64,000 nt of DNA, taken from Stanieria sp. NIES-3757. GTDB lineage: Bacteria > Cyanobacteriota > Cyanobacteriia > Cyanobacteriales > Xenococcaceae. The first letter of the stretch is position 1. Each line of letters begins with the position of its first letter. Below the pieces are notes generated by a model. That model was given only the letters and a program-made list of their open reading frames with translations. It was not told the DNA's origin and did no database searches. This document shows positions 15,048-32,230 of the stretch, piece by piece. Position numbers and translations under genes: made by a program. The DNA is taken from NCBI GenBank assembly GCA_002355455.1, contig AP017375.1, positions 930,001-994,000 of the forward strand, read 5' to 3'.

Positions 15048-15074
15048 AAAGATATAGCAACCAAATTATCGATT

Positions 15075-15200
15075 AAAACAAGTTATGGAACGTAGAGGCG
15101 AACGGCGGTTCGCAAGGGGAGGACGCGATGTCGCCCGCAGGTGGCGACATTACAGCCGTCCGTGCTGTGGCGTGAATTCGATTCACGCCCTTGTACGCCC
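15075..15200. repeat. Cluster of GC-rich palindromic repeats
   Basis: Three hairpin-forming palindromes in a row lie between converging genes: GGCGAACGGCGGTTCGC near 15096, ATGTCGCC/GGCGACAT near 15127-15150, and GGCGTGAATTCGATTCACGCC near 15168. Composition is unlike the flanking AT-rich sequence. It may serve as a two-way terminator for the PCD-like gene and hcp. Confidence 0.75.
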
Positions 15201-15230
15201 CGCCCTTACACAATTTATGTGTTTCCACCT

Positions 15231-16880: not shown

Positions 16881-16902
16881 AATTTCTCCTCAATTTAATG
16901 TA

Positions 16903-16945
16903 TGTAGGGACTGTGTGTAAGGGCGATTTACAAATCGCCCCTACG
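16903..16945. repeat. Dispersed palindromic repeat between hcp and globin gene
   Basis: GGGCGATTTACAAATCGCCC at 16921-16940 is a 20-base palindrome, followed by CTACG and preceded by GTAGGGACTG. It is the same family as 17781-17800, which has the same GGGCGATT..AATCGCCCCTAC frame. It abuts the stop codon of the globin gene and may form an internal mRNA hairpin in the operon. Confidence 0.8.
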
Positions 16946-17729
16946 ATTGATTGGTTTGATAAATTTGTTGTTCTCGGTTAATAAAAACTTCAGCTAATGC
17001 TTGATAAGCTTCTGTCCAAGCTGTCATTACTTCTTCTGTTGCAGCATCTCCCAAGACATCTTTGATTGCTTGTAATAAACTTTTTCCCACAATAGCGTAT
17101 TGTTCTGGTTGAACATGAGTTGCCACATGACGATGGGCAATTTTTTCTACCATTGATTTCAAAGCTGGCAAATTATCAATCTGGTTGGCATAGCTATAAA
17201 CCGCAGTAGCAAGTTTGTCAGGTTGAGAACCATTAGCTTGTGCAGACATATCAAATTGTTGCTTCACCTCTGGATGGTTGCGGAACATAATTTCATACAT
17301 CCTGGTAGTGATTTCTCGACCATGCTGTTTCAGGACAGGTGCGGTAGATTTAACAATAGCGATCGTTTTGGGACTGACTTGATCTTTGGGATGTAGATGT
17401 TCAGAAAGAGTCAATAAAAAAGATAGATTTTCTGTCGCTTGTAAAGCATGGGGTGCATTTGCTGGCATAAAGACAAATACTCCTGGATTTAAAGCAATTT
17501 CTTTACCTTCTAAAGTTAAACTTCCTTTCCCTTCAATTACTGTAACTACAGCATTACGAGTTGAAGTGTGTTCATCGATTTCCGTATCTTTTGCTAAACA
17601 GAAAAGAGTGTATTGACTGTTATTATCTTTGAGTAAAACTTTACTGAGAATTCCTTGCTTGGGATATTCAATCAAATTTTGTAAGCTAGCAGTAAATGAA
17701 TTGTTTGTTGAAGCTAATGCACCACTCAT
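16941..17729 (-). CDS. Cupin-globin fusion protein (flavohaemoglobin-type globin without reductase)
   Basis: 262 residues. N-terminal cupin (about 15-118): EHTSTRNAVVTVIEGKGSLT, then GVFVFMPANAPHALQA, with two likely metal histidines. C-terminal globin (about 125-262), of the flavohaemoglobin/bacterial globin type: MYEIMF holds the B10 Tyr, NGSQ near the E7 Gln, KIAHRHVATHV the proximal His, and VFINREQQIY the late conserved segment. All key residues of nitric-oxide dioxygenase chemistry are present. The FAD/NAD reductase domain found in Hmp is absent and replaced at the other end by the cupin. It stands between hcp and a methyltransferase in one operon; NO binding or sensing is the inferred role. 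An electron donor would have to come from another protein. Confidence 0.85.
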   Translation of the reverse strand: MSGALASTNNSFTASLQNLIEYPKQGILSKVLLKDNNSQYTLFCLAKDTEIDEHTSTRNAVVTVIEGKGSLTLEGKEIALNPGVFVFMPANAPHALQATENLSFLLTLSEHLHPKDQVSPKTIAIVKSTAPVLKQHGREITTRMYEIMFRNHPEVKQQFDMSAQANGSQPDKLATAVYSYANQIDNLPALKSMVEKIAHRHVATHVQPEQYAIVGKSLLQAIKDVLGDAATEEVMTAWTEAYQALAEVFINREQQIYQTNQS

Positions 17730-17777
17730 GATTTTTTCTCCTATAAATTTTTGTTATTTCTGAACTCATTATTTTGG

Positions 17778-18569
17778 TCAGGGCGATTCGTGAATCGCCC
17801 CTACAGTCCCGACAAAAACGATGTAACCTAAATCCTGTTGATGTTTTTGAAAACTGCGACGTATCTGCCAGACTCTCTGACGCAAGGTTGCATTAGTCAA
17901 AATCTTCCACCAAATTTTTAATGTGCCGAAGATACCTTCATCTCGAATCATTTGTTTTAGATTCAAAAGTCCCATCGCACCTGTTTGCTGCTGTTGTATA
18001 GTTAAACCAGCCGTAGCACAAGCAGACTGCCATTCTTCCACAGTTAACGGTTGAGAATTAACCCGAATTGCTTGAGATAGAGTTTGGTAAACTGCTGACT
18101 TGTTGCCTTTAACCAATAATTCATGGGATAAAAACTTGCCACTAGGTTTGAGATGATTTTGAATTGCTTGTAATACTTTTGCTTTTCCTGCTGGTGATTG
18201 CATCGTCAGGATGGCTTCAGCTAAAACATAATCGAACTTTTCTGTAATAGCTTCTAAATGAAAGATATCGCCCTCAATAATGGTTATCCGAGCTTCTAAA
18301 CCAGCATTTTTAATGTTTTCTCTCGCTTTGGCAACACTTTCAGGATTTTTTTCAATTCCCACAACACGAACATCAAAACGTTTTGCTAGAGAGATGGCAC
18401 TTTCGCCAAAACTAGCTGCTAATTCTAATACTGTCTCACCTGGCTGAAAATTAGCCCAAGTAAATAATTGTTCCGTTGCTTTTCGTCCCCCAGGGCGTAA
18501 TATCTTTTTCCCTGCTGCTGCTAATACCTGATGTCCTGGTGCTGTGGCAAGATTGAGAGTGGCTGTCAT
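17778..18569 (-). CDS. SAM-dependent class I methyltransferase
   Basis: Rossmann-type methyltransferase with the SAM loop VLELAASFGES, an acidic residue in VVGIEKNPES, and DIFHLE / FDYVLAEAIL downstream; UbiE-like in length. Substrate unknown. ATG 18569 is preceded by GGAGA at good spacing, better than the in-frame TTG 18584. First gene of a minus-strand operon with cupin-globin and hcp (48-base and 60-base gaps), so it may act in the nitrosative-stress response. The last ten residues (VGTVGAIHESP) are encoded by a dispersed repeat, not by the ancestral gene. Confidence 0.87.
   Translation of the reverse strand: MTATLNLATAPGHQVLAAAGKKILRPGGRKATEQLFTWANFQPGETVLELAASFGESAISLAKRFDVRVVGIEKNPESVAKARENIKNAGLEARITIIEGDIFHLEAITEKFDYVLAEAILTMQSPAGKAKVLQAIQNHLKPSGKFLSHELLVKGNKSAVYQTLSQAIRVNSQPLTVEEWQSACATAGLTIQQQQTGAMGLLNLKQMIRDEGIFGTLKIWWKILTNATLRQRVWQIRRSFQKHQQDLGYIVFVGTVGAIHESP
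17781..17800. repeat. Dispersed palindrome forming the 3' end of the methyltransferase gene
   Basis: GGGCGATTCGTGAATCGCCC lies inside the coding sequence. On the minus strand it reads GAIHESP plus stop. It is the second copy of the palindrome at 16921, 860 bases away. Such tails ending in IHESP are a known signature of this repeat in cyanobacterial proteins. Confidence 0.82.
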
Positions 18570-18734
18570 GAGTCTTATCTCCAACTCGATACTCTTACTT
18601 TGACATCAAGTTTCAGTTCGGTCTTTGAGGTAGCTCATGTTTGGAGGTAAAGTTTTGTTGAGTAAATTTAGACTCAAACGATATTCAGAAAATTGCGGAT
18701 TATCATCAATAATTTATTTGGAAAAATTTGAGAG

Positions 18735-18779
18735 CTACTTCATATATGTGGAGTAGACAGAGGCAAAATATCTAGATAT
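18735..18779. promoter_or_regulatory. Candidate operators in the divergent intergenic region
   Basis: Two dyads lie between the minus-strand NO operon and the plus-strand DUF488 genes. The first is a 22-base imperfect palindrome, CTACTTCATATATGTGGAGTAG split as CTACT..AGTAG, at 18735-18756 (18 of 22 positions symmetric). The second is a perfect 12-base palindrome, ATATCTAGATAT, at 18768-18779. They resemble repressor sites but I cannot assign a regulator. Confidence 0.4.
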
Positions 18780-18842
18780 CTTTTATAAATAATAGATAAT
18801 ATCAAAGTTAAAGCAATAAACTTTATGTAGGGAAAAGTATTA

Positions 18843-19544
18843 ATGGAGTTATTCACTATTGGTCACTCTAATCACAAAATAGAATCATTTATTGCTTTAC
18901 TTAAGAAACATGAAGTAAATGCGATCGCTGATGTCCGTTCTCATCCATACAGCAGATTCTTAACGCATTTTAATCAATCAAGTTTAAAAAAGGCTTTAGC
19001 AGATGAAGGAATTCGCTATGTATTTCTCGGACAAGAGTTAGGAGCAAGACCTAGTAATCAAGAATGTTATTTTGAAGGAAAAGCATTGTACGAAAGAATT
19101 GCTGCAACTAATACCTTTCATGAAGGAATTCAAAGGGTTTTGAATGGTTTAAAAAAATATAGGCTCGCATTAATGTGTGCAGAAAAAGACCCACTGACTT
19201 GTCACAGAGCCGTTCTTGTTTGTCAACATCTACGACATTTCGACTTAAGTATTAATCATATTTTAAAGAGTGGTGATTTAGAGTCTCATAAGCATTTAGA
19301 AGAAAGAATGCTTGCTAAGCAAGGTTTTAAAGACTTTACAGAGAGTGAAAAAAGTGTGGTTCAACTCTCTTTATTTTCTCAACAAGAGAATAACTTAATA
19401 ACAAAGGAAGAATGTTTGCAGAAGGCTTACAAGCTTCAGGGAGATGAGATTGCTTATGTAGAAACAAGGAACTACGATCATGAACAAGAAAATCAATCTA
19501 TTCACAATCGGTTTTACTCAAAAGAGCGCGCAAAAGTTCTTTGA
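18843..19544 (+). CDS. DUF488-family protein
   Basis: 233 residues. DUF488 signatures: TIGHSNHKIESF at the start, AIADVRSHPYSRF (the DVR motif near residue 30), YVFLGQELGARP, ALMCAEKDPLTCHRAV (CAE and CHR motifs near residues 111-122). The family is soluble and of unknown catalytic role; the invariant Arg/Cys/His set suggests an enzyme. A C-terminal extension of about 75 residues after the core is less conserved. Its last 65 bases overlap the next DUF488 gene. First gene of a tight three-gene unit. Confidence 0.88.
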   Translation: MELFTIGHSNHKIESFIALLKKHEVNAIADVRSHPYSRFLTHFNQSSLKKALADEGIRYVFLGQELGARPSNQECYFEGKALYERIAATNTFHEGIQRVLNGLKKYRLALMCAEKDPLTCHRAVLVCQHLRHFDLSINHILKSGDLESHKHLEERMLAKQGFKDFTESEKSVVQLSLFSQQENNLITKEECLQKAYKLQGDEIAYVETRNYDHEQENQSIHNRFYSKERAKVL

Positions 19545-19926
19545 GACACTTCAAAAAGCTGGTGTTAAAAGAGTTATCGATACTAGACTAAATAATGTTT
19601 CTCAGTTAGCAGGGTTTGCTAAAAGAAAAGATTTAGAGTATTTTTTAAAAACTATTGACGATATTGGTTATGTCCATATCTTAGAGTTAGCACCAACTCA
19701 AGATATTCTTGATGAATATAAGAAGAAAAAAGGAGATTGGGCAATATATGAGCAAAAATTTTTACAACTTGTAACTAATCGTCAAATAGAGAAGAAGGTT
19801 TCTCCAGAGATGCTAGATAATGCTTGTTTACTATGTAGTGAAGCAAAACCTCATCACTGTCATCGTCGCTTAGTTGCTGAATATTTGAATGAAAAATGGG
19901 GAAATATTAATATATGTCACCTTTAA
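19480..19926 (+). CDS. Second DUF488-family protein, compact
   Basis: 148 residues, starting MNKKINLFTIGFTQK, exactly where DUF488 proteins begin. That supports ATG 19480 despite the 65-base overlap with the preceding gene in another frame. Motifs: VIDTRLNN (DTR instead of DVR), a Glu/Leu-rich helix, LLCSEAKPHHCHRRLV (CSE and CHRR). Distinct from its neighbour, so an old paralogue pair rather than a recent duplicate. It ends ten bases before the dual-OB gene. Confidence 0.85.
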   Translation: MNKKINLFTIGFTQKSAQKFFETLQKAGVKRVIDTRLNNVSQLAGFAKRKDLEYFLKTIDDIGYVHILELAPTQDILDEYKKKKGDWAIYEQKFLQLVTNRQIEKKVSPEMLDNACLLCSEAKPHHCHRRLVAEYLNEKWGNINICHL

Positions 19927-19935
19927 AATTAATAT

Positions 19936-20610
19936 ATGTCCTCCCTAAAAAAAATTGTTTGTCTTGCTAATTCCTGGAAACTTGATGAACGTTGTATCGC
20001 TGGAATAGATCTTGATACAGGGCAATGGGTTCGTCCCGTGTGCGATACTATTTGTCCAGAAAATGGTAAAATTCCCAGATCGGTTCGACTTATTGCAGGA
20101 AAAGAACCGGAATTGTTAGACATTTTAGAAATTCCTCTTGCTAATACTGGAAATGATTTTGGTTTTGAATGTGAAAATCTTTCAGTAATAGCTGGTGAAT
20201 GGAAATATTTAACAAAAGCAAAACCTAATGATTTGATTCAATATTGTGGTAGTTTTACTCAGATTCTACATAATTCATCGAAATACGTAAATCCTTCTTA
20301 TTTAAAAAATCTTCCCTTTGAAGAACGCCGTACACTCCAATTAGTTAAAAGTGAAAGCTTTGACATACAATCAAAAACTAATTCAAAAGGTAATACAGAG
20401 TGGCGTGGTACTATTCAAACTAATAAAAGTGCGCGCTTATTAGAAGCAAAAATAACCGACCCAGTATTTGTAGAGAAACTAAACACAGGATATCAACCTC
20501 AAAACAACTGTTTAATAACAGTCAGTCTTAGTTTACCTTGGAAACCTCACGATCATTGGGAAGGTGAAGCTCCGTGTTGGAAATTAATAGCAGGGGTCAT
20601 AGAACTATAA
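19936..20610 (+). CDS. Predicted dual-OB-fold protein linked to DUF488
   Basis: 224 residues. The start reads LKKIVCLANSWKLDERCIAG then GQWVRPVCDT, a pattern I associate with the dual OB-containing domain family that accompanies DUF488 genes. Several short beta-strand-like segments follow, and a C-terminal SLSLPWKPHDHWEGEAPCWK motif with conserved Trp/His/Cys. OB folds often bind nucleic acid or small ligands, so this may supply the substrate-recognition part of the three-gene unit. Function unknown. Family assignment rests on recalled pattern only. Confidence 0.75.
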   Translation: MSSLKKIVCLANSWKLDERCIAGIDLDTGQWVRPVCDTICPENGKIPRSVRLIAGKEPELLDILEIPLANTGNDFGFECENLSVIAGEWKYLTKAKPNDLIQYCGSFTQILHNSSKYVNPSYLKNLPFEERRTLQLVKSESFDIQSKTNSKGNTEWRGTIQTNKSARLLEAKITDPVFVEKLNTGYQPQNNCLITVSLSLPWKPHDHWEGEAPCWKLIAGVIEL

Positions 20611-20658
20611 CAAGAAGCTAAAGTAATCTCTAATTAAATATAGCGATCGCACTAGAGC

Positions 20659-20719
20659 GAGATATTTTCAAGTTCTGAATTAGCCTGAAAAAATTTCGAG
20701 TTGATAAGACGCGATCGCG
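20659..20719. repeat. Left copy of a 60-bp direct repeat flanking the HicAB region
   Basis: GAGATATTTTCAAGTTCTGA begins a 61-base stretch that recurs with about nine changes at 21860-21919, in the same orientation. The pair brackets both HicAB modules. The copy ends in GCGATCGCG (HIP1) followed by a short palindrome (CTCAGCCTCGCTGAG). Confidence 0.8.
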
Positions 20720-20758
20720 TAGTGCCTCAGCCTCGCTGAGATCGCCTAAAATTAGGGG

Positions 20759-20944
20759 ATGAAAGTTAGAGATATAATCAAACTAATCGAACAAGATGGG
20801 TGGTATTTAGCTCGAACGCGAGGCAGCCATCGTCAATATAAACATCCTACTAAATCGGGTTTGGTCACTGTACCAGGAAAATTAAGTGACGATTTGGCTG
20901 TAGGAACACTAAACAGTATTTTAAAACAAGCAGGTTTGAAATAA
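20759..20944 (+). CDS. hicA: HicA-family mRNA interferase toxin
   Basis: 61 residues: MKVRDIIKLIEQDGWYLART, then GSHRQYKHPTKSGLVTVPGK and a C-terminal LNSILKQAGLK helix. The conserved GSHRQY with the catalytic His identifies the HicA (YcfA) double-stranded-RNA-binding-like fold, which cleaves mRNA in the absence of its antitoxin. Standard length. Its stop overlaps the next gene start by one base (TAATG), the usual hicAB coupling. The A-rich -10-like sequence and repeats upstream are not clearly a promoter. Confidence 0.93.
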   Translation: MKVRDIIKLIEQDGWYLARTRGSHRQYKHPTKSGLVTVPGKLSDDLAVGTLNSILKQAGLK

Positions 20945-21156
20945 TGCAGTATTTAATTGTGATCGAAAAAACAGAAACTGGTTATTCTGCCTATTCTCCC
21001 GATTTACCAGGTTGTGTTTCCACTGGCGCAACTCGTGAAGAAATAGAACAGAATATGCGTGAAGCAATTGAATTTCATCTTGATGGGTTGAAAGCAGAGA
21101 ATTTGGAAATTCCCAAACCCACAACTTCATCAGCTTATGTGGAAGTTGCAGCCTAA
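20944..21156 (+). CDS. hicB: HicB-family antitoxin
   Basis: 70 residues: MQYLIVIEKTETGYSAYSPD then LPGCVSTGATREEIEQNMRE and AIEFHLDGLKAENLEIPKP. This is the partial RNase-H fold of HicB antitoxins, which neutralise HicA. No DNA-binding C-terminal domain is present, so regulation is by the protein partner only or by the N-terminal fold. Start codon shared with the hicA stop. Confidence 0.92.
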   Translation: MQYLIVIEKTETGYSAYSPDLPGCVSTGATREEIEQNMREAIEFHLDGLKAENLEIPKPTTSSAYVEVAA

Positions 21157-21295
21157 ATAAAAACGTTCTATTTATTTAATTAAATCGTTTATTTGAGTGT
21201 AATCTATTAAAAAAGCGATCTTTGATTGTTCCTCTATTAAGACAATAAAATGCCGATTTTATAATTAAAACATGACCAAAAGAGAAAAATTTTTT

Positions 21296-21502
21296 ATGAA
21301 AACATTTACTGCAATTGTTGAGCGAGATTTAGATACTAATTTATACGTTGGTTATATCCCAGGATTTAAAGGCGCACATTCTCAGGGAGAAACTTTAGAC
21401 GAGTTAAAGGAAAATCTACGAGAAGTAATTGAAATGTTGTTAGAAGATGAAAATCCAATCTTTGAAACAGAGTTTGTAGGGACACAACAGATTGTGGTCT
21501 GA
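21296..21502 (+). CDS. Second HicB-like antitoxin
   Basis: Translated from ATG 21296 this is 68 residues: MKTFTAIVERDLDTNLYVGY, IPGFKGAHSQGETLDELKEN and LREVIEMLLEDENP. An in-frame ATG at 21272 would add eight residues, but MKTFTAIVE is the usual HicB beginning. Its stop is seven bases before a broken hicA. Here antitoxin precedes toxin, the reverse of the first module, so the two modules belong to different HicAB subtypes. Confidence 0.85.
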   Translation: MKTFTAIVERDLDTNLYVGYIPGFKGAHSQGETLDELKENLREVIEMLLEDENPIFETEFVGTQQIVV

Positions 21503-21508
21503 TGATTA

Positions 21509-21733
21509 ATGAGTAATATTCCTGTTTTAAAACCGCAAGAAGTTGTCCGAATTTTAGAGAATCGAGGATTTTTAGAAGTACGTCAAAAAGGTTCGCATAA
21601 GCAGTTTCGATATGAAGATGGTCGAGCTACAATAGTACCTTTTCATTAAGGACGGGATATTTCCCCCAGATTATTAAGACAAATCGCTAGTGACATCAAT
21701 TTAACAGTTGAAGAACTATTAGAATATCGTTAG
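21509..21733 (+). pseudogene. hicA with an in-frame stop
   Basis: The frame from ATG 21509 reads MSNIPVLKPQEVVRILENRG, then RQKGSHKQFRYEDGRATIVP and FH, and meets TAA at 21647-21649 where intact relatives continue with K-G-R-D-I-S. The same frame then goes on as GRDISPRLLRQIASDINLTV to a TAG at 21731-21733. One codon change would restore a full 74-residue HicA. The toxin is therefore probably inactive, while its antitoxin (21296) stays intact. A sequencing error cannot be excluded from the sequence alone. Confidence 0.8.
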
Positions 21734-22155
21734 TTTATATAGTAATTGAAACATTTTACTTTTCTTAGATTAGCGAATAAAGCGATCGCTGAATTTGAGG
21801 CTGGTAACAGAGAAAAGATTGTTAATTAAGATTAATTTTTATAGGTTTAATTAGGAGTTGAGATATTTTCGAGTTCTGAATTAGCCTAAAAAAAATTGAG
21901 TTAATCAGACGAGATCGCGATTTTGAGGAGCTAACCTCTCCCTTGTTAAATAAAGTCTGAAATAGTTAGATTTTGGCTATAAGCAGTCAAAAGTAATACA
22001 TTTGACTTGAGGATTCTGTCTGTAGATGGACGTGACTGTTCCGTTAAATTAATTACACTACAGTCTAAATAGATTCAGCAGATAAATTAGTTAGATTTTT
22101 TTTTCTATCTCAATCTACTGGTGAGTTAATGGAAAACGAGCCTCAATAATATTCT
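21734..22155. other. 422-bp gap with repeat; upstream region of the oxidase operon
   Basis: No coding region beyond the right copy of the direct repeat at 21860. The last 230 bases are AT-rich and hold the likely promoter of the oxidase gene: a TTGACT occurs near 22001, but no good -10 follows at 16-18 bases. Confidence 0.5.
21860..21919. repeat. Right copy of the 60-bp direct repeat
   Basis: GAGATATTTTCGAGTTCTGA starts this copy; it matches 20659-20719 across its length. Flanks the broken hicA on its right. A 14-base piece (GAGTTAATCAGACG) reappears at 24794, at the end of the exporter gene. Confidence 0.8.
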
Positions 22156-23283
22156 ATGATTACAGATGTCAGTCCTCACGCTTTGATAAAAAAAGTTAAA
22201 AATTACACCTCACCTACGGTTGAAGATATAGATTTTTTTGTGGCAGAAAATCAACTCATTGAGTTGTTAGCTTTGGAAGAGCTAGATCAATATGTTACCC
22301 AATCTCCTGAGCGAGTTGAGAATTTAGAAAAAGCGATCGCTACAGCAGTTCCCTTAGCTTATGCAGATCCTTTAGAACCTGGGGACGCAACTGCTCATCG
22401 ATTCTTACAGCGAGTTTTATACCGCATTAATCGCCTCAATTTATTTTGGTACGATGATTTGCAGCATTATCGCAATGAAAGATCATTTTATTTACAATGG
22501 GTACGCGATCGCATTGAATCTGTTTGGCAGGCTTGGGAACTCCAGCAGATGGATGTTGAAACCCTTCAGCAACAAAATATAGAGAAAACTTTAACAGAAT
22601 GGGGTAAAGCGGATCTAAATCCCCCAATAACCGAAAATAGACGTTTCTTGCGCGAAGAAATAGATCGAGAAGGATATCGCTGGTTGTTGGCGATCGCCTC
22701 TCTGGACGGTCTAGTCGAAGCCAGTCGGATGTCTCGAATTTTAGGGGGAGCTAGCAACGAAGTTCAAGCAACCTTGATCCGAGTTTTGTTAGAGGAATAT
22801 GGCAATGGTCGTCTATCCCGTAAGCATTCCACTTTCTTTGCCAAAATGATGGCTGAGATGGAGTTAAATATAGAACCAGAAGGATATTTCGATCTCGCTC
22901 CCTGGGAACTTTTAGCCAGCATTAACCACAACTTTTTGCTCACTGAATGCAAGCGTCACTTTTTGCGTTACAACGGTGGCTTGACTTACTTTGAAATTGT
23001 TGGACCTTCTATCTATACGGATTACCTGATGGCTGCTCAAAGATTGAACCTCAGCGAAGACTCATCAGGATATTGGGCTTTGCATATTCGGGAGGACGAG
23101 CGACACGGGCAATGGATGTTGCGGGATGTAGCCCTTCCCCTGGCAGAGCAGTACCCCAACAACGCCTGGGAAATTTTACTTGGCTATGCCCAAGAAAAGT
23201 TTATAGGCGATCGCGCTGGTAACGCAGTGATTCAATGCATCAAACAAGCTGATGCTCATCTTCCTGTGATTCTTTCTGCATAA
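22156..23283 (+). CDS. Haem-oxygenase-like diiron oxidase (HDO), SznF-like ligand spacing
   Basis: 375 residues. The N-terminal 150 residues are helical and charged. The C-terminal 225 residues form the HDO fold with a full candidate ligand set: E188, E213 or E214 (LLEEYGNG), H224 (RKHSTFF), E280 (TYFEIVG), H310, D314 and H317 (ALHIREDERHGQ). I recall the central domain of SznF, the N-oxygenase of streptozotocin biosynthesis, as having E189, E215, H225, E281, H311, D315 and H318: the same spacing. HDO enzymes use a diiron site and oxygen for N-hydroxylation, N-oxygenation or C-C cleavage of amino-acid-derived substrates. The cupin domain of SznF is absent. Substrate unknown. First gene of a probable operon with a methyltransferase and a LysE exporter. 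Confidence 0.85.
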   Translation: MITDVSPHALIKKVKNYTSPTVEDIDFFVAENQLIELLALEELDQYVTQSPERVENLEKAIATAVPLAYADPLEPGDATAHRFLQRVLYRINRLNLFWYDDLQHYRNERSFYLQWVRDRIESVWQAWELQQMDVETLQQQNIEKTLTEWGKADLNPPITENRRFLREEIDREGYRWLLAIASLDGLVEASRMSRILGGASNEVQATLIRVLLEEYGNGRLSRKHSTFFAKMMAEMELNIEPEGYFDLAPWELLASINHNFLLTECKRHFLRYNGGLTYFEIVGPSIYTDYLMAAQRLNLSEDSSGYWALHIREDERHGQWMLRDVALPLAEQYPNNAWEILLGYAQEKFIGDRAGNAVIQCIKQADAHLPVILSA

Positions 23284-23320
23284 ATTGCCTATTTTTTAAC
23301 TTAATTATTGAACTCTTACT

Positions 23321-24064
23321 ATGAACAAAAGTCTTTTAACCTCGGAAGCTTTAGTTGAGGTTAATTCCCCCAATCAAATTTTCTTCTGTCCTGAAGAATC
23401 TCAATTCTATGCCCAATGCTTAGAAAAAATGGTGTTATCTCAAAACACTTCAAAAATCTCGGTGGTTGAATTTGGTTCTGGAGATGGTAGTCCTGTAATT
23501 CAAGCACTTCTCAAGAGTTCCTTTGGTGGAATCATTCAAGGATATGAATTAAATTCAGATGCTTGTCAGTTAGCAAAATTGAGAATTAAACAATATAATC
23601 TTGATTCTTATTACCGCATCTACAACACTTGTTTTTTTGAAAACTCTCCAGAAGAAGCTCGGTGTTTGATTGCCAATCCTCCCTACCTCCCAGCCCCAGA
23701 TAACCAGCTTTATATGCCATCTCTGCATGGAGGTCATGACGGAGCAACCATTACCAAACGACTCCTTGCCCAGGGCTATGAACAAGTTATGCTGATGATT
23801 TCGGCTTACTCCAATCCAGTTGATACAGTAAACTACGCTACGAAGTTAGGTTATCAGGTGGTTGATTTCATGATTTCTCCTCTCAAGTTTGGCTATTACA
23901 GTTGTGAACCCAAAGTAAAAAATAGCATTACAGAATTGCAGCGTAAGCGTAAGGCTTTCTTTTCAAAAAACATTTACTTTCTAGCAGGAGTTTTTTTTCA
24001 ACAAAAAAGTTCTCAGACTTCGTGTCTTTCAGAAGAGTTTTTGAAAGTAATGACAGCTTTATAG
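23321..24064 (+). CDS. SAM-dependent methyltransferase with NPPY motif
   Basis: 247 residues. SAM motif I at VVEFGSGDGS (about 48-57), motif II-like acidic residue in IIQGYELNSD (76), and motif IV ANPPYLPAP (119-126). NPPY is typical of enzymes that methylate nitrogen atoms such as amino or amide groups (HemK, RlmF-type and DNA N6-adenine families). No target-recognition or DNA-binding domain is evident, so a small molecule or protein glutamine is plausible. Located 37 bases after the HDO gene and before an amino-acid exporter, which favours a small-molecule role. Confidence 0.85.
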   Translation: MNKSLLTSEALVEVNSPNQIFFCPEESQFYAQCLEKMVLSQNTSKISVVEFGSGDGSPVIQALLKSSFGGIIQGYELNSDACQLAKLRIKQYNLDSYYRIYNTCFFENSPEEARCLIANPPYLPAPDNQLYMPSLHGGHDGATITKRLLAQGYEQVMLMISAYSNPVDTVNYATKLGYQVVDFMISPLKFGYYSCEPKVKNSITELQRKRKAFFSKNIYFLAGVFFQQKSSQTSCLSEEFLKVMTAL

Positions 24065-24171
24065 TGAATTGTTTTCCATGGAATAATCAGCGAAATATAT
24101 AACCAACTAAATATTTGTCCTAAAATTAACTCAATTAAGCACTGAGGTAAATATTAACTTTTAGGAGCGTA

Positions 24172-24801
24172 ATGTCTATGCAAAGCAGTATGACATTTAG
24201 CAGCATGGTTGCATTATTCAGTGCCATGATTGTTCTAGCTTCTATTCCTAGTCTTAGTGTCTTGGCTGTTTCTACCAGATCCGCTACCTTTGGCTTTATT
24301 CATGGCGTTTTTACAACCATAGGAATATTAATTGGTGACATCGTTTTCATAATAATTGCTATTTGGGGTTTATCGCTTATTGCTGAAACCATGGGAAACC
24401 TATTTGTTTTAATAAAATACCTGGGTGGAATTTATTTGATCTTCCTGGGAATAGGTTTATGTAGGTCAAAAACAAAGGTTTTACCAACACAAGAAGTTGT
24501 TAAATCTTCTTTAATGTCTAGTTTTATGACTGGATTGTTGATAACATTAGGCGATCAAAAAGCTACCTTATTTTATCTTGGTTTTTTTCCAGCTTTTCTC
24601 GATCTTTCTCAAGTATCTTATTTGGATACTGTCATTATTATAGGGATTACTATAGTTGCCGTAGGCGGTGTAAAACTTGGTTATGCCTTGATGGCAGATC
24701 GAGCTAGATTCTTAATTAATTTTAAAACAAGGAAAATAATCAATATTGCTGCTGGCATTGTCATGATTGCTGTTGGATTATTTTTAATAACGAAGAGTTA
24801 A
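24172..24801 (+). CDS. LysE/RhtB-family exporter
   Basis: 209 residues with AGGAG seven bases before ATG. Six membrane segments are visible, with the first two helices separated by a short RSATFGFIHG motif, a hydrophilic turn RSKTKVLPTQEVV after helix 3, and FMTGLLITLGDQKATLFYLG, the family signature area. LysE/RhtB proteins export amino acids such as lysine, arginine, homoserine or their analogues. As the last gene of the HDO operon it most likely exports the pathway product or detoxifies it. Confidence 0.88.
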   Translation: MSMQSSMTFSSMVALFSAMIVLASIPSLSVLAVSTRSATFGFIHGVFTTIGILIGDIVFIIIAIWGLSLIAETMGNLFVLIKYLGGIYLIFLGIGLCRSKTKVLPTQEVVKSSLMSSFMTGLLITLGDQKATLFYLGFFPAFLDLSQVSYLDTVIIIGITIVAVGGVKLGYALMADRARFLINFKTRKIINIAAGIVMIAVGLFLITKS

Positions 24802-25154
24802 TCAGACGCAATTTACTTAAATTTCTGGGATTTTAAACATAGTTTTTATCAAACTACTCAAAAAAAATCTGAGCCAAAAAAGCGATCGCTTATGCGCCAG
24901 GCGAAGCCTGACCGCTTGCCTTATAAATTTCTTTGACTCAATTTTCCCGTAATGATACGGACAAACCTTCTTTCTAGAAGCAGGAAACTCGCTCTTTTTT
25001 TTCTCTTATCTTGATAATTACTTTATAAACACTCATGATTTAACAAATTTTTTAACTGAAAATTTATTTAGCAATTCAGTGAATGTTACCTGTTACATAA
25101 CTCATCAACGTTATTAAATATATATATAGAAATTAAATGTTGTCGGGAAAGAAT
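24802..25154. other. Gap with palindromic repeats
   Basis: At 24880-24925 there is GCGATCGC followed by CCAGGCGAAGCCTGACC, a palindromic unit that recurs in related form at 29190 and in other gaps. Otherwise AT-rich; no gene seen. Confidence 0.6.
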
Positions 25155-25355
25155 ATGCACTTCTTAGGATTGATTAAATTAAACTTCAACTTTTCTAATC
25201 CCAAAAATGATTTTTTGAGTGTTAGTGTTAGTGAACCAAGAGTCCAAAAAATCGATTTTACTCAACAACCAGAAGAAGCAAATTTAGCTAGATTAGAAGA
25301 AGCTTTATATGCTGATGACGACCAAGGAATTTGCAATCTAAGTTTGTATTGTTAA
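25155..25355 (+). CDS. Possible small protein, unknown function
   Basis: Open from ATG 25155 (66 residues) with GGGAAAG just upstream; an in-frame ATG at 25137 would add six residues. Sequence begins MHFLGLIKLNFNFS and ends with an acidic PEEANLARLEEALYADDD then CNLSLYC. The acidic, Leu-rich second half looks protein-like and the codons are like neighbouring genes, but I recognise no family. Tentative. Confidence 0.35.
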   Translation: MHFLGLIKLNFNFSNPKNDFLSVSVSEPRVQKIDFTQQPEEANLARLEEALYADDDQGICNLSLYC

Positions 25356-25463
25356 GAAACTAGTTGGTTAACTAAGTTTTGAGAAAATTTTTAAATAGCA
25401 ATTTTAAAATATTTTTTAATTTGGTTTTTAGTTGAACCAATAGTAAATAATCTAGCTAATTGA

Positions 25464-26171
25464 CTACGCACTACGAGGCATCAAGCGACGAAAAAGTCGG
25501 TAGCTTTGACGAACAAAATCTAAGATAAAGTAAGGCATCCGTACCGGAAGCCAAGAAAGAAAAGGCAAATATATTAAATAATAAGCTTTTTTCAAATCAT
25601 CCCATGCTCGACAAGGTTGTTCATTAAGAAAATCGGAGACATCTACAACTAATCCTCTGCCTTCGTGCATCATGACATTACGCCCATGAACATCGTGAGG
25701 GTACAAACCTAACCCTCGAATATATTTTAAAGCTTGGTTGATATCTTTGATGACTTGCGGCGGGATTTTTAGCCCACGATGCAAACAATCATAAAGAGTA
25801 ACTCCATATAATCGTTTCAAAACTAAAAAATCTTCTTCTGCATAGAAACATTTAGAAAAAGCTGGATGAGAACCTAGACGACGATAAACTTCTAATTCTT
25901 CTGCCCAACCCTTTCTTCCAGGTGCATAAATTTTGACTACGAGATCGACATAATTAGGATGATAAAATACTCCAGCATAATTTCCTGTTCCTAATAATTG
26001 CCAAGGTTGAGGAAGGTGATGAACTACAACAGGATTGTGAGGATCGACACTTTCTATTTTTAAATGGGGAAGTAATTCTTGATGAATGCTTTCGATTAGA
26101 GGCGTGATTTCCAATCCATTTTGACAAGATTGATCAGAAAAATTAGAAGAATTTTGTGATTTAGGCAACAT
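25464..26171 (-). CDS. Atypical protein-kinase-fold protein
   Basis: 235 residues. It has the kinase core: GTGNYAGVFY as glycine loop, VVKIYAPG with Lys 80, an N-terminal Glu helix, and a catalytic loop HDVHGRNVM (D160, N165) with a downstream Asp (D177) in VVDVSDF. The fold resembles small lipopolysaccharide-kinase-like or RIO-like enzymes more than PknB. A C-terminal hydrophobic segment (LIYLPFLSWLPVRMPYFIL) may sit on the membrane. Substrate unknown. Single gene; both neighbours are on the other strand or far away. Confidence 0.82.
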   Translation of the reverse strand: MLPKSQNSSNFSDQSCQNGLEITPLIESIHQELLPHLKIESVDPHNPVVVHHLPQPWQLLGTGNYAGVFYHPNYVDLVVKIYAPGRKGWAEELEVYRRLGSHPAFSKCFYAEEDFLVLKRLYGVTLYDCLHRGLKIPPQVIKDINQALKYIRGLGLYPHDVHGRNVMMHEGRGLVVDVSDFLNEQPCRAWDDLKKAYYLIYLPFLSWLPVRMPYFILDFVRQSYRLFRRLMPRSA

Positions 26172-26927
26172 TTGTAATTAATTTTAATTGTAGATAAAAT
26201 GATAACGTGGCAATGGTATTTTAAGAAAAATTCTGTATGCTAAATTTGGCATTAAAGATTAAGTTGTATAGTCACAAAAAGCTCCGACTGATCGATTAAA
26301 TAAAATCTTACAAGTGCCAGTAGCACCATTACTATTGTTATCGAAAAAGAAAACAGCTTCAACTTAATTTTTAACTCATAGTTTTTATTTTCAGCTATTT
26401 TTAACTGGCTGAATTATTTTCTGATGATTTTTTAGTCTAAACTCCAGTCATTTTAGAGAGAGTTTGAATTTGTGCGACCGTTTCGGTATAACTACTACTG
26501 TATTACAATACCTTTAGGAACGCTGAGTCTATTTATCTGAACCAAAAACTCTATCATTTGTCGATAGAGCAGCAGTATGTATTGGTTTTGGAACTGATGC
26601 TCAAAACTTCTGTCAATGCATGGTCTAATGACTCGGGCGATCGCGTAGTTCCGAAATTGAGGGAATTTCTCGCGGGGATAGTTCGCGAACCTACAGCAAA
26701 AATTTCCATTAAGGCACTACAAGTCAGTAGTTCAACCCTCGCAGAGAAATAAGCATTTATTAATAATGTGGCGGATTAAATCACTCCTCAAGATTGAGTT
26801 TTCTTGCTGAACTGGGGGGATTTAAAATCGCTTAGTAAAAATTAACTGCTCTAAGTGGCGTATTTCTTCCCTGACACAAACTTTTTGTCTGTGCCGAGTT
26901 TGTGCTAACAGAGGCAGAATGTGCTTA
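26172..26927. other. 756-bp gap without a convincing gene
   Basis: A TTG-started open stretch at 26558-26752 has no ribosome site and no protein-like pattern, so it is not called. There is HIP1-like sequence near 26637 and a short palindrome GTTCGCGAAC near 26681. Possibly decayed sequence. Confidence 0.55.
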
Positions 26928-27014
26928 CGGAGAGGGAGGGATTCGAACCCTCGAACGAGTCACCCCGTTACAGCATTTCCAGTGCTGCGCCTTCGACCAC
27001 TCGGCCACCTCTCC
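26928..27014 (-). tRNA. tRNA-Ser (anticodon GGA)
   Basis: On the minus strand: acceptor GGAGAGG at the 5' end pairs with CCTCTCC, with discriminator G. The anticodon stem CAGCA/TGCTG encloses CTGGAAA (anticodon GGA). A long variable arm (class II) and a GGTTCGAATCC T-loop are present. No encoded CCA. All invariant features of a bacterial tRNA-Ser are seen. Confidence 0.95.
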
Positions 27015-27253
27015 AGGTGTCGCGATTTATCATTATACATGGCAACGTAAGTTTTTCAAACTATTAATAAATTCTTTTTTGTTGATAGACTACACATGGC
27101 AGAGTTAAAGATAGGCAAAGTCGAAGCAAAAAAAGGGTTGTAGGAAAAACTTGGTGAGCTTCTTCAACTTGAAAAATCTTTGTTGTTACACAACGGAGTA
27201 TCTTTAACTCAAAGCTAAATTTCAACAATTAGAATCAAGCTTAAAATTAACTG

Positions 27254-27619
27254 ATGAAATCTCATAAAATTACCGTTCACTATCATCAACAAGGAAAAAT
27301 CTATACTGTAGAAGTTCCTGAAAACCAATATATTTTACAGACTGCGGAAAAACAGGGTGTAGAATTACCTTTTTCTTGTCGTAATGGTGCTTGTACAAGT
27401 TGCGCCGTCAGAATTATATCTGGAGAAATTGAACAACCTGAAGCAATGGGATTATCACCTAAATTAAAACAACAAGGCTATGCCTTATTGTGTGTAAGCT
27501 ATCCTCGTTCAGATTTAGTTGTAGAAACCCAGGATGAAGATGAAGTGTACGAACTTCAGTTTGGGCGTTATTTTGGTAAGGGAAAAGTTCGAGTTGGCTT
27601 ACCTTTGGATGAAGATTAA
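27254..27619 (+). CDS. Plant-type [2Fe-2S] ferredoxin with C-terminal extension
   Basis: 121 residues. Cluster motif FSCRNGACTSCAVR (Cys about 46, 51, 54) and the fourth Cys in LLCVSYPRSD near 84. A further 30-residue tail (EDEVYELQFGRYFGKGKVRV) follows, longer than in photosynthetic PetF. This shape recalls the extended ferredoxins of cyanobacteria and plants (FdC2-like). It may carry electrons to a specialised redox partner. The cluster-loop wording RNGACTS differs from the usual RAGACST. Confidence 0.88.
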   Translation: MKSHKITVHYHQQGKIYTVEVPENQYILQTAEKQGVELPFSCRNGACTSCAVRIISGEIEQPEAMGLSPKLKQQGYALLCVSYPRSDLVVETQDEDEVYELQFGRYFGKGKVRVGLPLDED

Positions 27620-27673
27620 ATAAGTTCAACTGTGATGCTTTTCTCCCACACAGAGGAGATAAATCTAGATTTT

Positions 27674-28195
27674 ATGAATTTTCTTAGGAAAATCTGTCTA
27701 ATTTGTTGTTGCTGTTTCTGGTTATGTAGCTGTCAAAATTCTGATTTACCTTCAACTATTAAGGCTAAAGTAAAACGGGTAGTAAGCGGACAAACTATCG
27801 AAGTATGGTTAAATCAAGCAGACCATTCTAGCTCAAAAGAAACAGTCAGAATCATTGGCATTAATGCCCCAGATTTACAGCAATCTCCTTGGGGAAAAGC
27901 AGCCCAACAGAAACTAGAACAATTAATTAGTCCAAAAGTTTCTACAATTCAATTGCAGCTTGAAAAACGCGATCGCTTTAATCGGTATTTAGCTCATATT
28001 TGGCATGATGGTACTTTAATTAGTGAACAATTAGTTAAAGAAGGATATGTTTTAGCTGATACTAATTATCCCAATCAATACAGTCAGCGTCTTTGGTACG
28101 CCCAAGAATATGCTCGTTTAATGGGTTATGGGATTTGGAATCCTCAACAACCGATGCGAGAATCTCCCGATCAATTTCGTTCTCAAAAAAAGTAA
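27674..28195 (+). CDS. Thermonuclease-like (SNase) lipoprotein
   Basis: 174 residues from ATG 27674. The N-terminus (MNFLRKICLICCCCFWLCSC) looks like a lipoprotein signal with Cys-rich lipobox, so membrane attachment is likely. The SNase fold is shown by KAKVKRVVSGQTIEVWL, then VRIIGINAPDLQQSPWGKAA, a RFNRYLAHIWHDG segment and LVKEGYVLADTNYP. SNase catalytic residues Arg and Glu are only partly recognisable, so activity is not certain. An upstream in-frame GTG (27632) would spoil the signal peptide. Followed by the IMPase gene after three bases. Confidence 0.82.
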   Translation: MNFLRKICLICCCCFWLCSCQNSDLPSTIKAKVKRVVSGQTIEVWLNQADHSSSKETVRIIGINAPDLQQSPWGKAAQQKLEQLISPKVSTIQLQLEKRDRFNRYLAHIWHDGTLISEQLVKEGYVLADTNYPNQYSQRLWYAQEYARLMGYGIWNPQQPMRESPDQFRSQKK

Positions 28196-28198
28196 ATC

Positions 28199-29032
28199 AT
28201 GAGCCAAAATTCCGTCGCACAATTACAAATTTTTTTAGATATTGCTACCGAAGCAGTTATGGCTGCTGGAGTCGTTTTACAAAATTATTGGGGTAAATTA
28301 GAACAGATTGAAGAAAAAGGTAAACCTGGAGATTTGGTTACCGAAGCTGATAAACAAGCAGAGAAAGCAATTATTCAAGTATTAAATCGTCATGTTCCTG
28401 AACATAGCATTTTGGCAGAAGAATCAGGAAAACTAGGCTCAATGGAAAGTGAATATCTTTGGGCGATCGATCCGTTGGATGGTACAACCAATTATGCTCA
28501 TGGTTATCCTGTGTCCGCCGTTTCGGTTGGGTTAATGATTGATGGTATTCCCCAAGTAGGAGCAGTATATAATCCTTTCCGTAATGAATTATTTCGTGCT
28601 GCTAAAGGTTTAGGTGCTAGTTGTAATCGTCGTCCAATTCGAGTTTCTCAAACTAAAGAATTAAGTAAAAGTCTCTTGGTAACTGGTTTTGCTTATGATC
28701 GCAGAGAAACAACGGATAATAATTATGCTGAGTTTTGTTATCTAACTCATCTCACTCAAGGTGTGCGTCGTAGTGGTTCTGCTTCTTTAGATTTAACTGA
28801 TGTTGCTTGTGGCAGATTAGATGGTTATTGGGAAAGAGGACTAAGTCCTTGGGATATTACCGCCGGAATTGTGATCGTTCAAGAGGCTGGCGGAAACATA
28901 ACTGCTTATGATGGTAGTGAAATTCAAGTGAATTCTGGGCGAATTTTGGCTACTAATGGTCAGATTCACCAAAGTTTGAGTCAAGCTCTTTTAGAAACTC
29001 CCTCTTTGGCAAGTTGGCAAGGTAAATCTTAA
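28199..29032 (+). CDS. suhB: Inositol-monophosphatase family protein
   Basis: 277 residues. Metal-dependent sugar/inositol phosphatase. Seen: motif 1 LAEESGK (Glu), the DPLDGTTNYAHGYPV signature with metal aspartates, and a second metal motif WDITAGIVIVQEAGG. Standard IMPase length and order. In cyanobacteria, members dephosphorylate inositol phosphate or histidinol phosphate, so suhB is an assignment by family only. Located three bases after the nuclease gene, so translated from the same mRNA. Confidence 0.93.
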   Translation: MSQNSVAQLQIFLDIATEAVMAAGVVLQNYWGKLEQIEEKGKPGDLVTEADKQAEKAIIQVLNRHVPEHSILAEESGKLGSMESEYLWAIDPLDGTTNYAHGYPVSAVSVGLMIDGIPQVGAVYNPFRNELFRAAKGLGASCNRRPIRVSQTKELSKSLLVTGFAYDRRETTDNNYAEFCYLTHLTQGVRRSGSASLDLTDVACGRLDGYWERGLSPWDITAGIVIVQEAGGNITAYDGSEIQVNSGRILATNGQIHQSLSQALLETPSLASWQGKS

Positions 29033-29488
29033 GATACAGGTAATGAGAGCTTGATCCAGCAAGTCCCATCGCTATAACTGATTGATTGTAGATAAACAGA
29101 ATTTATAGCAGTACAAAGAAAAATTAGGACATTACATTGATCGTAGGGGCGATCTCGCCAAAGGCTAGGCACAGAGTGGTCAGGCTTCGCCTGGGGCGTA
29201 CGCGGTCTCAGCGAAGCGGACGGGGCATACAAGGTTATTGTGTCCTAACCCTAGGACGTAGTGCTATAGTATCAGCTATTTGTTTGACATCTTTTTCTTG
29301 TCTTATATCGGCGACTATTTTAGGCAACAAGTTTGAGTTGATTCCTCACAAAAAATTAGTTTTACTTCCTAAGTAAGATCACTTATTTATCTTTTTCTGC
29401 TGGATTCTCAAAACTGAATATCTATCGAAATTAAGATTGAAACAAGGCTATTTATTTTAAAATATTGTATTGTGCCATAAAATCAATC
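29033..29488. other. 456-bp gap with repeat cluster
   Basis: From 29139 to about 29235 there are GTAGGGGCGAT, CAGGCTTCGCCTG, GGTCTCAGCGAAGC and similar palindromic modules also found near 15100, 20725, 24890, 38375 and 44760. No gene. AT-rich around it. Confidence 0.7.
29139..29235. repeat. Mosaic of dispersed palindromic repeats
   Basis: Contains GTAGGGGCGATC, CAGGCTTCGCCTG and GCGGTCTCAGCGAAGC. The CAGGCGAAGCCTG core also appears at 24897 and the CTCAGCGAAGCTGAG type at 44766. GC-rich compared with the flanks. Confidence 0.75.
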
Positions 29489-30640
29489 ATGACTAGACTT
29501 AGCAAGGATGCAACCCTTCTTCTTAAAGGTTTAATTATTGGTAAAGTATTAACACTCGTAGTAGTTGGTGGGTTTTTCTGGTGGTTTTGGTCGCGTTTGG
29601 GAAGAGAACAAAATTTTGTCGCTTCTAGAAATACACGTTCAGATAAGGCCTTTTCCAATCTCCCCTCCCAAACAATCACCCGAATTCCGATAGGTTCATT
29701 TAATTATGGTGGTAGTTCAGCATGGGCTCCAATTCGACAGACAATTGATTCTCAAATTCAAGCTACCTATCCCGAATTGCAATTGCGCTATGTAAATCCT
29801 GTTAATGCCAATCCTAGTTCAAGTTCGGGCATTCAAATGTTACTTAATGGAGAGTTGGACTTTGTTCAGTCAACGCGCCCTGTAACAACACAAGAGCAAA
29901 CTATTGCTCAACAGCAAGGCTTTTCTCTTCGGGCATATCCAGTTGCTATCGATGGAGTAGCCGTGGTAGTCAATCCATCTTTAAATCTAACGGGAGGTTT
30001 GACTGTCTCCCAACTCCAGCAAATTTTTACTGGCAAGATCACCAATTGGAGCGAAATAGGCGGAAATAATCTCTCAATTGTTCCTTTTGCTCTTCCTGTA
30101 CAAGATTCAGAAAGGGAGATTTTTACCGGGGAACACCGGTGGCAGCAGACTCCCGAGTTAAACTCGGGAGTACCTGCCACCTCATCTAACGAGTCACAAT
30201 CAACCTCATTAGGGCAAAATGTTCAATACATCAACTCCACTACTGAAGCTATTCGCAAGGTTAGTAAGACTCCAGGTGGAATTTATTTTGCTTCGGCAAA
30301 AACACTCATTCCTCAGTGTAGTGTTAAACCCTTAGGTTTAGGTTACAGTAGCGATCGCTTGATAGCTCCCTATCACGATCCTTTGATTTCACCACAACAA
30401 TGTCCTGATTCACGCAATCAAGTAAATATAGAAGTCTTTGAAAATAAGACTTATCCCCTAACACGGAAAATGTATGTAATTGTTAAAGAAGATGGAAGTA
30501 TGGCTGAGCAAGCAGGAGAAGCTTATGCAAAGCTTTTACAAACTGAAACTCTTCAAAATGCGATCGCGCAAGCTGGATTTGCTAGTTTAAATCAATCTAA
30601 AGAAGTTGCAGAAAAAAATTTAACTGAAGCTAGCCGGTAA
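29489..30640 (+). CDS. PstS-like phosphate-binding protein with N-terminal membrane anchor
   Basis: About 383 residues from ATG 29489. Residues near 18-35 form one membrane segment (VLTLVVVGGFFWWFW). The periplasmic-binding-protein core includes FNYGGSSAWAPIRQTIDSQI, the phosphate-loop-like STRPVTTQEQ and FTGKITNWSEIGGN, and a late GGIYFASAKTL. Family: phosphate ABC-transport substrate-binding (PstS-type), here membrane-anchored; no permease genes adjoin it. An in-frame palindromic repeat lies inside the coding sequence at 30138-30181. Possibly a phosphate sensor-like binding protein. Confidence 0.87.
   Translation: MTRLSKDATLLLKGLIIGKVLTLVVVGGFFWWFWSRLGREQNFVASRNTRSDKAFSNLPSQTITRIPIGSFNYGGSSAWAPIRQTIDSQIQATYPELQLRYVNPVNANPSSSSGIQMLLNGELDFVQSTRPVTTQEQTIAQQQGFSLRAYPVAIDGVAVVVNPSLNLTGGLTVSQLQQIFTGKITNWSEIGGNNLSIVPFALPVQDSEREIFTGEHRWQQTPELNSGVPATSSNESQSTSLGQNVQYINSTTEAIRKVSKTPGGIYFASAKTLIPQCSVKPLGLGYSSDRLIAPYHDPLISPQQCPDSRNQVNIEVFENKTYPLTRKMYVIVKEDGSMAEQAGEAYAKLLQTETLQNAIAQAGFASLNQSKEVAEKNLTEASR
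30138..30181 (+). repeat. In-frame nested palindrome inside the PstS-like gene
   Basis: GGTGGCAG (30138-30145) pairs with CTGCCACC (30174-30181), and inside it ACTCCCGAGTT (30149-30159) with AACTCGGGAGT (30161-30171). Together they make a large hairpin. It is in frame and encodes RWQQTPELNSGVPAT, in the region between two core blocks. The outer and inner arms are offset by one base. Confidence 0.9.
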
Positions 30641-30785
30641 TAAAAGAAATAGAGCCATAAATGTCAATCAAACTCACTTTTATTGCTTCGTAATTGTGAT
30701 TCTTTAACTATTTATTGTCTAGCAAAACTAATTATTTGCCGTAAGTAGATGACTAAAAAACAAGAATGTTTTCGATCATAATGAC

Positions 30786-31955: not shown

Positions 31956-32230
31956 TATGAAATGTTTATAAATGTTTGCTACGGTTGGAGCTTTTTTAAC
32001 TGTTAGCTAACACCTTAACTCAAATCAAACTATTGGTAGCATTCTTTTTACTATTTGAGATCAGATTATTTAAATTTAAGCAAGTTTGGTACTTTTCTTG
32101 ACGGAGATAGTTTAACCAGCGTTCAATCAAAATGATCTTGATGATTTACTGATTAAGTAGATTAGATTCTCGTCAAGTTAGTACCTTGCTTTAATAGCGA
32201 TCGCAATTTATTTGAACGAAGAGAAAGTTT

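Follow-up and report, generated by a model that had tools for sequence, protein, structure and literature searches.

A conserved diiron enzyme-methyltransferase gene pair of cyanobacteria as a candidate N-oxygenation pathway

Results

A two-gene set kept or lost together in cyanobacteria

The genome of Stanieria sp. NIES-3757 (assembly GCA_002355455.1) encodes, within the 64,000-nucleotide stretch analysed here (contig AP017375.1, positions 930,001 to 994,000 of the forward strand; hereafter the window), a heme-oxygenase-like diiron enzyme (HDO) followed by an NPPY-type methyltransferase and a LysE-type exporter. We found that the first two genes form the conserved unit, a two-gene set that is kept or lost together in the cyanobacteria searched, while the exporter looks like a local neighbor rather than a conserved part of it. 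An initial annotation of the window had joined all three in one pathway of methylation, N-oxidation and export. Its view of an N-oxygenase-type diiron HDO that lacks a cupin domain and is tied to an NPPY methyltransferase is supported, whereas its inclusion of LysE in the pathway is not. The three open reading frames (ORFs) do lie on one strand, separated by gaps of 37 and 107 bases:

22156..23283, plus strand: HDO-family diiron enzyme (P0001), 375 amino acids, with predicted 3-His/4-carboxylate ligands E188, E214, H224, E280, H310, D314 and H317
23321..24064, plus strand: NPPY (HemK/N6AMT1-like) class I S-adenosylmethionine methyltransferase (P0002), 247 amino acids, by sequence; constant partner of the HDO in the cyanobacteria searched
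24172..24801, plus strand: LysE-type exporter, 209 amino acids; found as neighbor of the HDO and methyltransferase in this genus only, outside the conserved unit

Presence and absence were scored in 386 cyanobacterial genomes, Stanieria sp. NIES-3757 included, with thresholds of E ≤ 1e-10 for the HDO and E ≤ 1e-20 for the methyltransferase. Each was found in 30 of the 386 and the two sets of genomes were identical, these genomes being related and hence not independent observations of co-presence. Among nine further near relatives, the methyltransferase was present in all 5 with an HDO and in 0 of the 4 without one. The 386-genome search gave 29 loci besides that of the window; in 26 of them the methyltransferase gene adjoins the HDO gene, on the same strand in 16 (one of them a 60-residue remnant) and convergently in 10. 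The exceptions are G308, in which the methyltransferase lies about 1.45 Mb from the HDO, G062, in which it is on another contig beside a degraded second HDO copy, and G195, in which the contig ends at the HDO. The two genes are on different contigs in G406 and are both fragments in G056, and a truncated HDO adjoins a transposase gene in G352. Natural losses were seen at two loci: the HDO is truncated next to a DDE transposase gene and the methyltransferase intact in L058, and both genes have decayed jointly in L059.

A second scan, of the GTDB species collection with two peptide patterns, gave 276 relatives, and in the best 80 of these 276 the methyltransferase was found 78 times, three times as partial or split ORFs. 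Pooling gave 110 HDO loci, some of which are probably one genome taken twice (L033 and L086 have contigs of equal length), and these fall into 33 groups, which are HDO clusters at 80% identity and not species; the largest holds 54 loci. The methyltransferase lies within 5 kb of the HDO at 105 of the 110 loci and in 31 of the 33 groups, and three of the five loci without it (L045, L046, L055, L101 and L133) are at or near a contig end. By contrast, the second most frequent neighbor of the HDO reaches only 5 of the 33 groups. The conserved co-occurrence that the initial annotation had named as decisive thus exists for these two genes. Of 105 distinct HDO rows, 14 show the convergent orientation, and a quick tree of these 105 HDOs requires at least 6 changes of orientation, of which well-supported branches force three. 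Since the pair persists through such rearrangements, a shared pathway fits better than a mere shared transcript.

In the same quick tree, HDOs from Trichormus and Anabaena (L083, L090, L105) cluster with those of Pseudanabaena (L096, L098) and not with Nostoc, a placement that suggests transfer of the HDO-methyltransferase pair between lineages. A DAO-Rieske flavoprotein is encoded upstream of the HDO at three loci (L032, L035, L059) and about 3 kb downstream at two (L096, L098). It is a possible electron donor at the former three; as a general donor it was rejected because it occurs in only 2 of the 33 groups.

The third gene behaves differently. Its product is a LysE protein as annotated (Pfam LysE, 111.1 bits against a cut-off of 25.6), and a homologue of this type was found at only 1 of the 110 loci, the window itself, some loci ending at contig edges. 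Another species of the genus also has HDO, methyltransferase and LysE together. In a set of 30 near relatives, the three genes were present in three further genomes, all drafts, in which LysE and the HDO are on separate contigs; four others carry LysE (broken in one) with neither HDO nor methyltransferase. LysE is therefore not conserved with the pair and, as far as searched, adjoins it only in this genus, which argues for a two-gene set and not a three-gene export operon; on these co-occurrence data it was rejected as a part of the pathway.

The HDO resembles N-oxygenases

By its sequence, the 22156-23283 product is a heme-oxygenase-like diiron enzyme with a predicted 3-His/4-carboxylate (3H/4C) site. 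It matches Pfam Haem_oxygenas_2 with 91.4 bits (cut-off 28.9), the single such match in the whole genome. E188, E213/E214, H224, E280, H310, D314 and H317 are all present, and phmmer placed E188/E214/H224/E280/H310/D314/H317 opposite SznF E189/E215/H225/E281/H311/D315/H318, which bears out the offset of one in the initial annotation. All 28 aligned full-length cyanobacterial proteins share the seven ligands (the truncated homologues L058 and L059 were excluded); 27 of them are relatives 49-64% identical to the window HDO. E188 takes the position of SznF E189, the extra glutamate of the 3H/4C N-oxygenases SznF and RohS. One report gives SznF E189 and RohS E93 as auxiliary-helix iron ligands and states that AetD has Phe there (PMC11611611). 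In a broader alignment, the four actinobacterial HDOs and the three HDO-cupin proteins checked all have Glu at this position, and L144 and L149 have Phe and Asp, respectively; the remaining six ligands are retained throughout.

A profile of the family, searched against the PDB at E ≤ 0.1, matched only RohS (1.9e-18), SznF (2.6e-13) and HrmI (3.1e-6). The AlphaFold2 model (predicted local distance difference test, pLDDT, 85.3; predicted template modelling score 0.86) has HDOs as its top fold matches. Among the matches listed, the Z scores are 29.0 for HrmI, 24.2 for RohS, 23.0 for SznF, 21.7 for 3bjd (a Pseudomonas aeruginosa entry under a different name) and 20.9 for FlcD, followed by BesC (18.1), CADD (17.4), AetD (15.6) and UndA (15.5), so that the top three are all N-oxygenases. 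The likeness to SznF drawn in the initial annotation is real, but the closest relative is RohS in sequence and HrmI in fold, with SznF further back.

Each of these three enzymes differs from the window HDO in its own way. The azomycin N-oxygenase RohS (PDB 9pfx, 9pfw), which acts on 2-aminoimidazole and for which we know of no partner methyltransferase, is the best sequence match and shares the auxiliary-helix Glu, but its chain has 306 residues and the alignment begins at model residue 75-79, leaving most of the N-terminal domain of the window HDO unmatched. The lysine N-oxygenase HrmI (PDB 9n1x) gives the best full-length fold match among those listed (root-mean-square deviation 3.4 over 334 residues) but the weaker sequence match. 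The HDO domain of SznF (PDB 6vzy, 6m9r) aligns over 322 residues, N-terminal domain included. SznF also carries a cupin domain; the window HDO has none, as had been noted, since Pfam gives the protein only Haem_oxygenas_2 at E ≤ 0.001, and an N-nitroso rearrangement is not expected here. A cupin was seen in three HDO relatives of 463-471 residues, that of L140 being below the Pfam cut-off. By resemblance to this family in sequence and predicted fold, we infer fairly strongly that the HDO oxygenates a nitrogen atom by means of a diiron cluster and O2.

The partner is an NPPY methyltransferase distinct from PrmC

P0002 is, as judged from its motifs, an NPPY (HemK-like) class I methyltransferase. 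It gives a weak MTS/HemK-type match, under the curated cut-off of every matched Pfam and NCBIfam model. The NPPY motif read by the initial annotation is present and invariant in 26 of 26 aligned proteins (one 60-residue fragment was excluded); NPPY is a mark of planar-nitrogen methylation. Identity with PrmC was rejected, because P0002 scores 27.6 bits against the PrmC equivalog cut-off of 199.1 and the genome has a separate PrmC of its own (C1:710006, 224.2 bits). Among the matches listed for its predicted model (pLDDT 81.3), the leading folds are N6AMT1/HEMK2/KMT9 (Z 16.9), MmtN (15.8) and PrmC (15.5). One MmtN entry, 7vvx, is a complex with free methionine (Z 15.6), which shows that a fold of the P0002 type can serve a free amino acid too. 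On plasmids, no relatives of the methyltransferase were matched.

A putative NtcA site upstream of the HDO in part of the range

The sequence GTAN8TAC, the NtcA consensus (PMC3898017), was found by exact match in the 300 bases preceding the HDO at 59 of the 110 loci, compared with 39 of 862 other ORFs of those loci and, as the control rate in the largest group, 22 of 401 other ORFs. Altered GTA/TAC spacings of 5-7 and 9-11 gave 0-7 matches, and other N8 palindromes gave at most 33. At least one of the 59 matches (L121) lies inside coding sequence, the HDO there being split. The matches are concentrated: 48 of the 59 belong to the 54-locus group, in which heterocyst-formers are dominant, most of them at about −80. 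That group has about twenty spacer forms and few rows (L111, L118, L129) that deviate in the halves, and it is by this scarcity of deviating rows that the constancy of the halves was judged. Counted by group, the site occurs in 8 of the 33 (p 9e-5 in a binomial test with the control rate as reference, a generous value because large groups have many chances) and in 5 of 25 singleton groups (p 0.005). In the heterocyst-former-dominated group, NtcA may well exert nitrogen control over the HDO-methyltransferase pair.

Upstream of the methyltransferase, GTAN8TAC was found at 6 of 14 convergent versus 2 of 83 same-strand loci, and at 1 of 4 loci whose HDO is outside the tree. These sites were not relied on, since 4 of the 6 are only 21-24 bases ahead of the start codon, and a mismatch occurs in 4 of 7 Microcoleus-type copies. 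For the window itself, alignment of its upstream region with those of eight near relatives gave a candidate promoter:

22013..22064, plus strand: upstream region holding a TTCTGYC block, followed later by TA-N-AGT (possible −10)

A scan for consensus promoters and terminators found 12 versus 10.9 and 2 versus 2.5 sites in real and shuffled sequence, respectively. With counts so close to those of the shuffles, the scan neither joins nor splits the HDO, methyltransferase and LysE genes.

Actinobacterial and SznF-like relatives

HDOs also occur on plasmids and chromids, in records from Streptomyces, Embleya, Streptantibioticus, Kitasatospora and Nocardia. In 9 of the 12 actinobacterial records sampled from 18 found, the HDO is accompanied by a CDGSH protein and a HemK2-type methyltransferase; the other three are without a methyltransferase. 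As in the cyanobacterial pair, the HDO of this cassette (e.g. Streptomyces NBC_00984, L143) stands beside a methyltransferase, here of the HemK2/MTQ2 type, and keeps the seven ligands in the 4 proteins checked. By contrast, the HDOs are 22-24% identical overall and the methyltransferases 25%, and the CDGSH iron-sulfur protein is additional; with methyltransferase identity at only 25%, common descent of the two pairings is not established. No description of the cassette was found in the open-access literature searched. Among the nine cassettes (L143, L145-L148, L150-L152, L154), that of L145 lies between SigB/SigF/SigG sigma factor genes and that of L143 near gas-vesicle genes. A dimethylargininase, a faint hint of methylarginine, was dropped as a clue to an arginine substrate because it adjoins in only 1 of the 12 records.

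Plasmid-borne HDO-cupin proteins of SznF-like layout were seen in Pantoea (L140), Gloeothece PCC 7822 (L141) and Azospirillum (L142). Each is followed by a Rieske protein, and the loci variously add a methyltransferase, transporters and an ATP-grasp ligase. These three are candidate N-nitroso pathways.

Selection and flanking genes in the window

Compared with the second species of the genus, the ratio of nonsynonymous to synonymous substitution rates is 0.099 for the HDO, 0.138 for the methyltransferase and 0.125 for LysE, indicating purifying selection on all three genes, which are not chance ORFs. A PADLOC search for defence genes gave 0 matches for the three proteins.

A few kb from the HDO, a cupin-globin fusion is encoded at 16941-17729 on the minus strand (Cupin_2 at residues 42-101, Globin at 143-247), directly upstream of a Prismane / hybrid cluster protein gene on the same strand (15231-16880). 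Such a couple suggests handling of nitric oxide or hydroxylamine. Neighbors of this type showed no wide recurrence beside the HDO of relatives at the 110 loci. Two overlapping DUF488 genes and then a dual-OB domain gene lie at 18843-20610 on the plus strand.

Discussion

A possible two-enzyme pathway and its alternatives

We tentatively read the pair as a two-gene modification pathway of methylation and HDO N-oxygenation, with guanidine as a guessed substrate group and possible NtcA control in part of its range, a reading to which we give somewhat less than an even chance. The methyltransferase would methylate a planar nitrogen, perhaps most likely that of a guanidine, in a small molecule resembling an amino acid, and the HDO would hydroxylate the methylated nitrogen group with its diiron site and O2. 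The pathway would end at an N-hydroxy(-methyl)guanidine-type product and LysE would not be required. SznF-like nitrosation was rejected for an HDO without a cupin; as SznF-type rearrangement is not expected, the pathway would halt before a nitrosourea. The pairing itself has a parallel, since SznF works alongside the methyltransferase SznE (PMC11705231) and acts on methylarginine (PMC13108848). A dedicated partner gene also accompanies the mangotoxin HDO (MboA/MboB); there the redox partner is a reductase and not a methyltransferase, the site is three-histidine/three-carboxylate (3H/3C) in three of four chains, and ATP-grasp ligases are present (PMC13185094). A search of the open-access literature, with subscription papers (RohS and SznF included) outside its scope, gave no paper describing this HDO-methyltransferase pair.

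Several observations weigh against the proposed pathway. Guanidine is the first guess because SznF acts on methylarginine and RohS on 2-aminoimidazole; since SznF, RohS and HrmI differ in the nitrogen group that they act on, this guess would hold by analogy only. At 20 HDO loci (80,255 bases), no Rfam family, and hence no guanidine riboswitch, scored at its gathering threshold, and in window positions 15000-32000 one tRNA alone did. HrmI, the best fold match, is described as 3H/3C (PMC13108848), whereas E188 suggests 3H/4C for the window HDO. The top protein and small-molecule enzymes matched by P0002 fall within about 1.4 Z, too alike for the fold to offer a choice of methyltransferase target. 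The convergent loci, together with the separation in G308 and G406, indicate that the pair need not be one transcript. As to nitrogen control, only 4 of the 110 loci fit the canonical NtcA promoter layout with its −10 spacing, and upstream of the window HDO there is no exact GTAN8TAC.

The strongest competitor, improbable but well short of negligible, is that the HDO takes a methylated amino acid or fatty acid through a different HDO reaction (desaturation, C-C cleavage or rearrangement). The catalytic range of HDOs is wide, and those with a known reaction number only about a dozen (PMC13108848); however, E188 is present where AetD has Phe, and at E ≤ 0.1 the HDOs that the family profile matched in the PDB were all N-oxygenases. 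Distinctly less probable is a protein target, in which the methyltransferase would act on a release-factor-like or ribosomal protein or on the HDO itself, and the HDO would modify a protein or self-mature like CADD. N6AMT1/KMT9 and PrmC, which are among the best folds for P0002, methylate proteins. By contrast, MmtN with its free methionine follows close behind, the genome has a proper PrmC elsewhere, and presence in 30 of 386 genomes is a patchy distribution unlike that of a housekeeping modification. We consider a three-gene biosynthesis-and-export operon with LysE as dedicated exporter quite unlikely: the common strand, the 107-base gap, the purifying selection on LysE and retention of the trio in the only other genome searched within the genus agree with it, but a homologue is found at 0 of the 109 other loci (some clipped by contig ends), on a different contig in three other genomes with both genes, and without HDO or methyltransferase in four.

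Two further explanations appear very unlikely. One is a stress-protective HDO like Acinetobacter DtpC, which lowers H2O2 on drying and whose protective effect depends on its HDO ligands (PMC13232832). Several hosts of the pair do belong to terrestrial or subaerial genera, but the word "methyltransferase" is absent from the main text of the DtpC report, and no third gene, hence no catalase, recurs in more than 5 of the 33 groups. The planktonic Planktothrix carries the pair too. The other, to which we give the same slight chance, is that a RohS-like step yields a nitro-heterocycle, for example a methylated nitroimidazole. RohS is indeed the closest PDB sequence; the methyltransferase, however, is the only widely recurrent partner, so that no ring-forming enzymes recur, the other azomycin genes not having been searched for.

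It is possible, though we hold this less firmly than the proposed two-gene pathway of methylation and N-oxygenation itself, that a widespread minimal two-enzyme pathway of cyanobacteria, tied in part to nitrogen, makes an undescribed methylated, N-oxidised small molecule (e.g. an N-hydroxyguanidine), and that actinobacteria have an analogous cassette with a CDGSH electron carrier. Because the HDO subfamily is sharply defined and has a single constant partner, its chemistry could be approached with just two proteins. Should that chemistry yield an N-oxidised metabolite under nitrogen control, a common cyanobacterial metabolite would so far have gone unseen.

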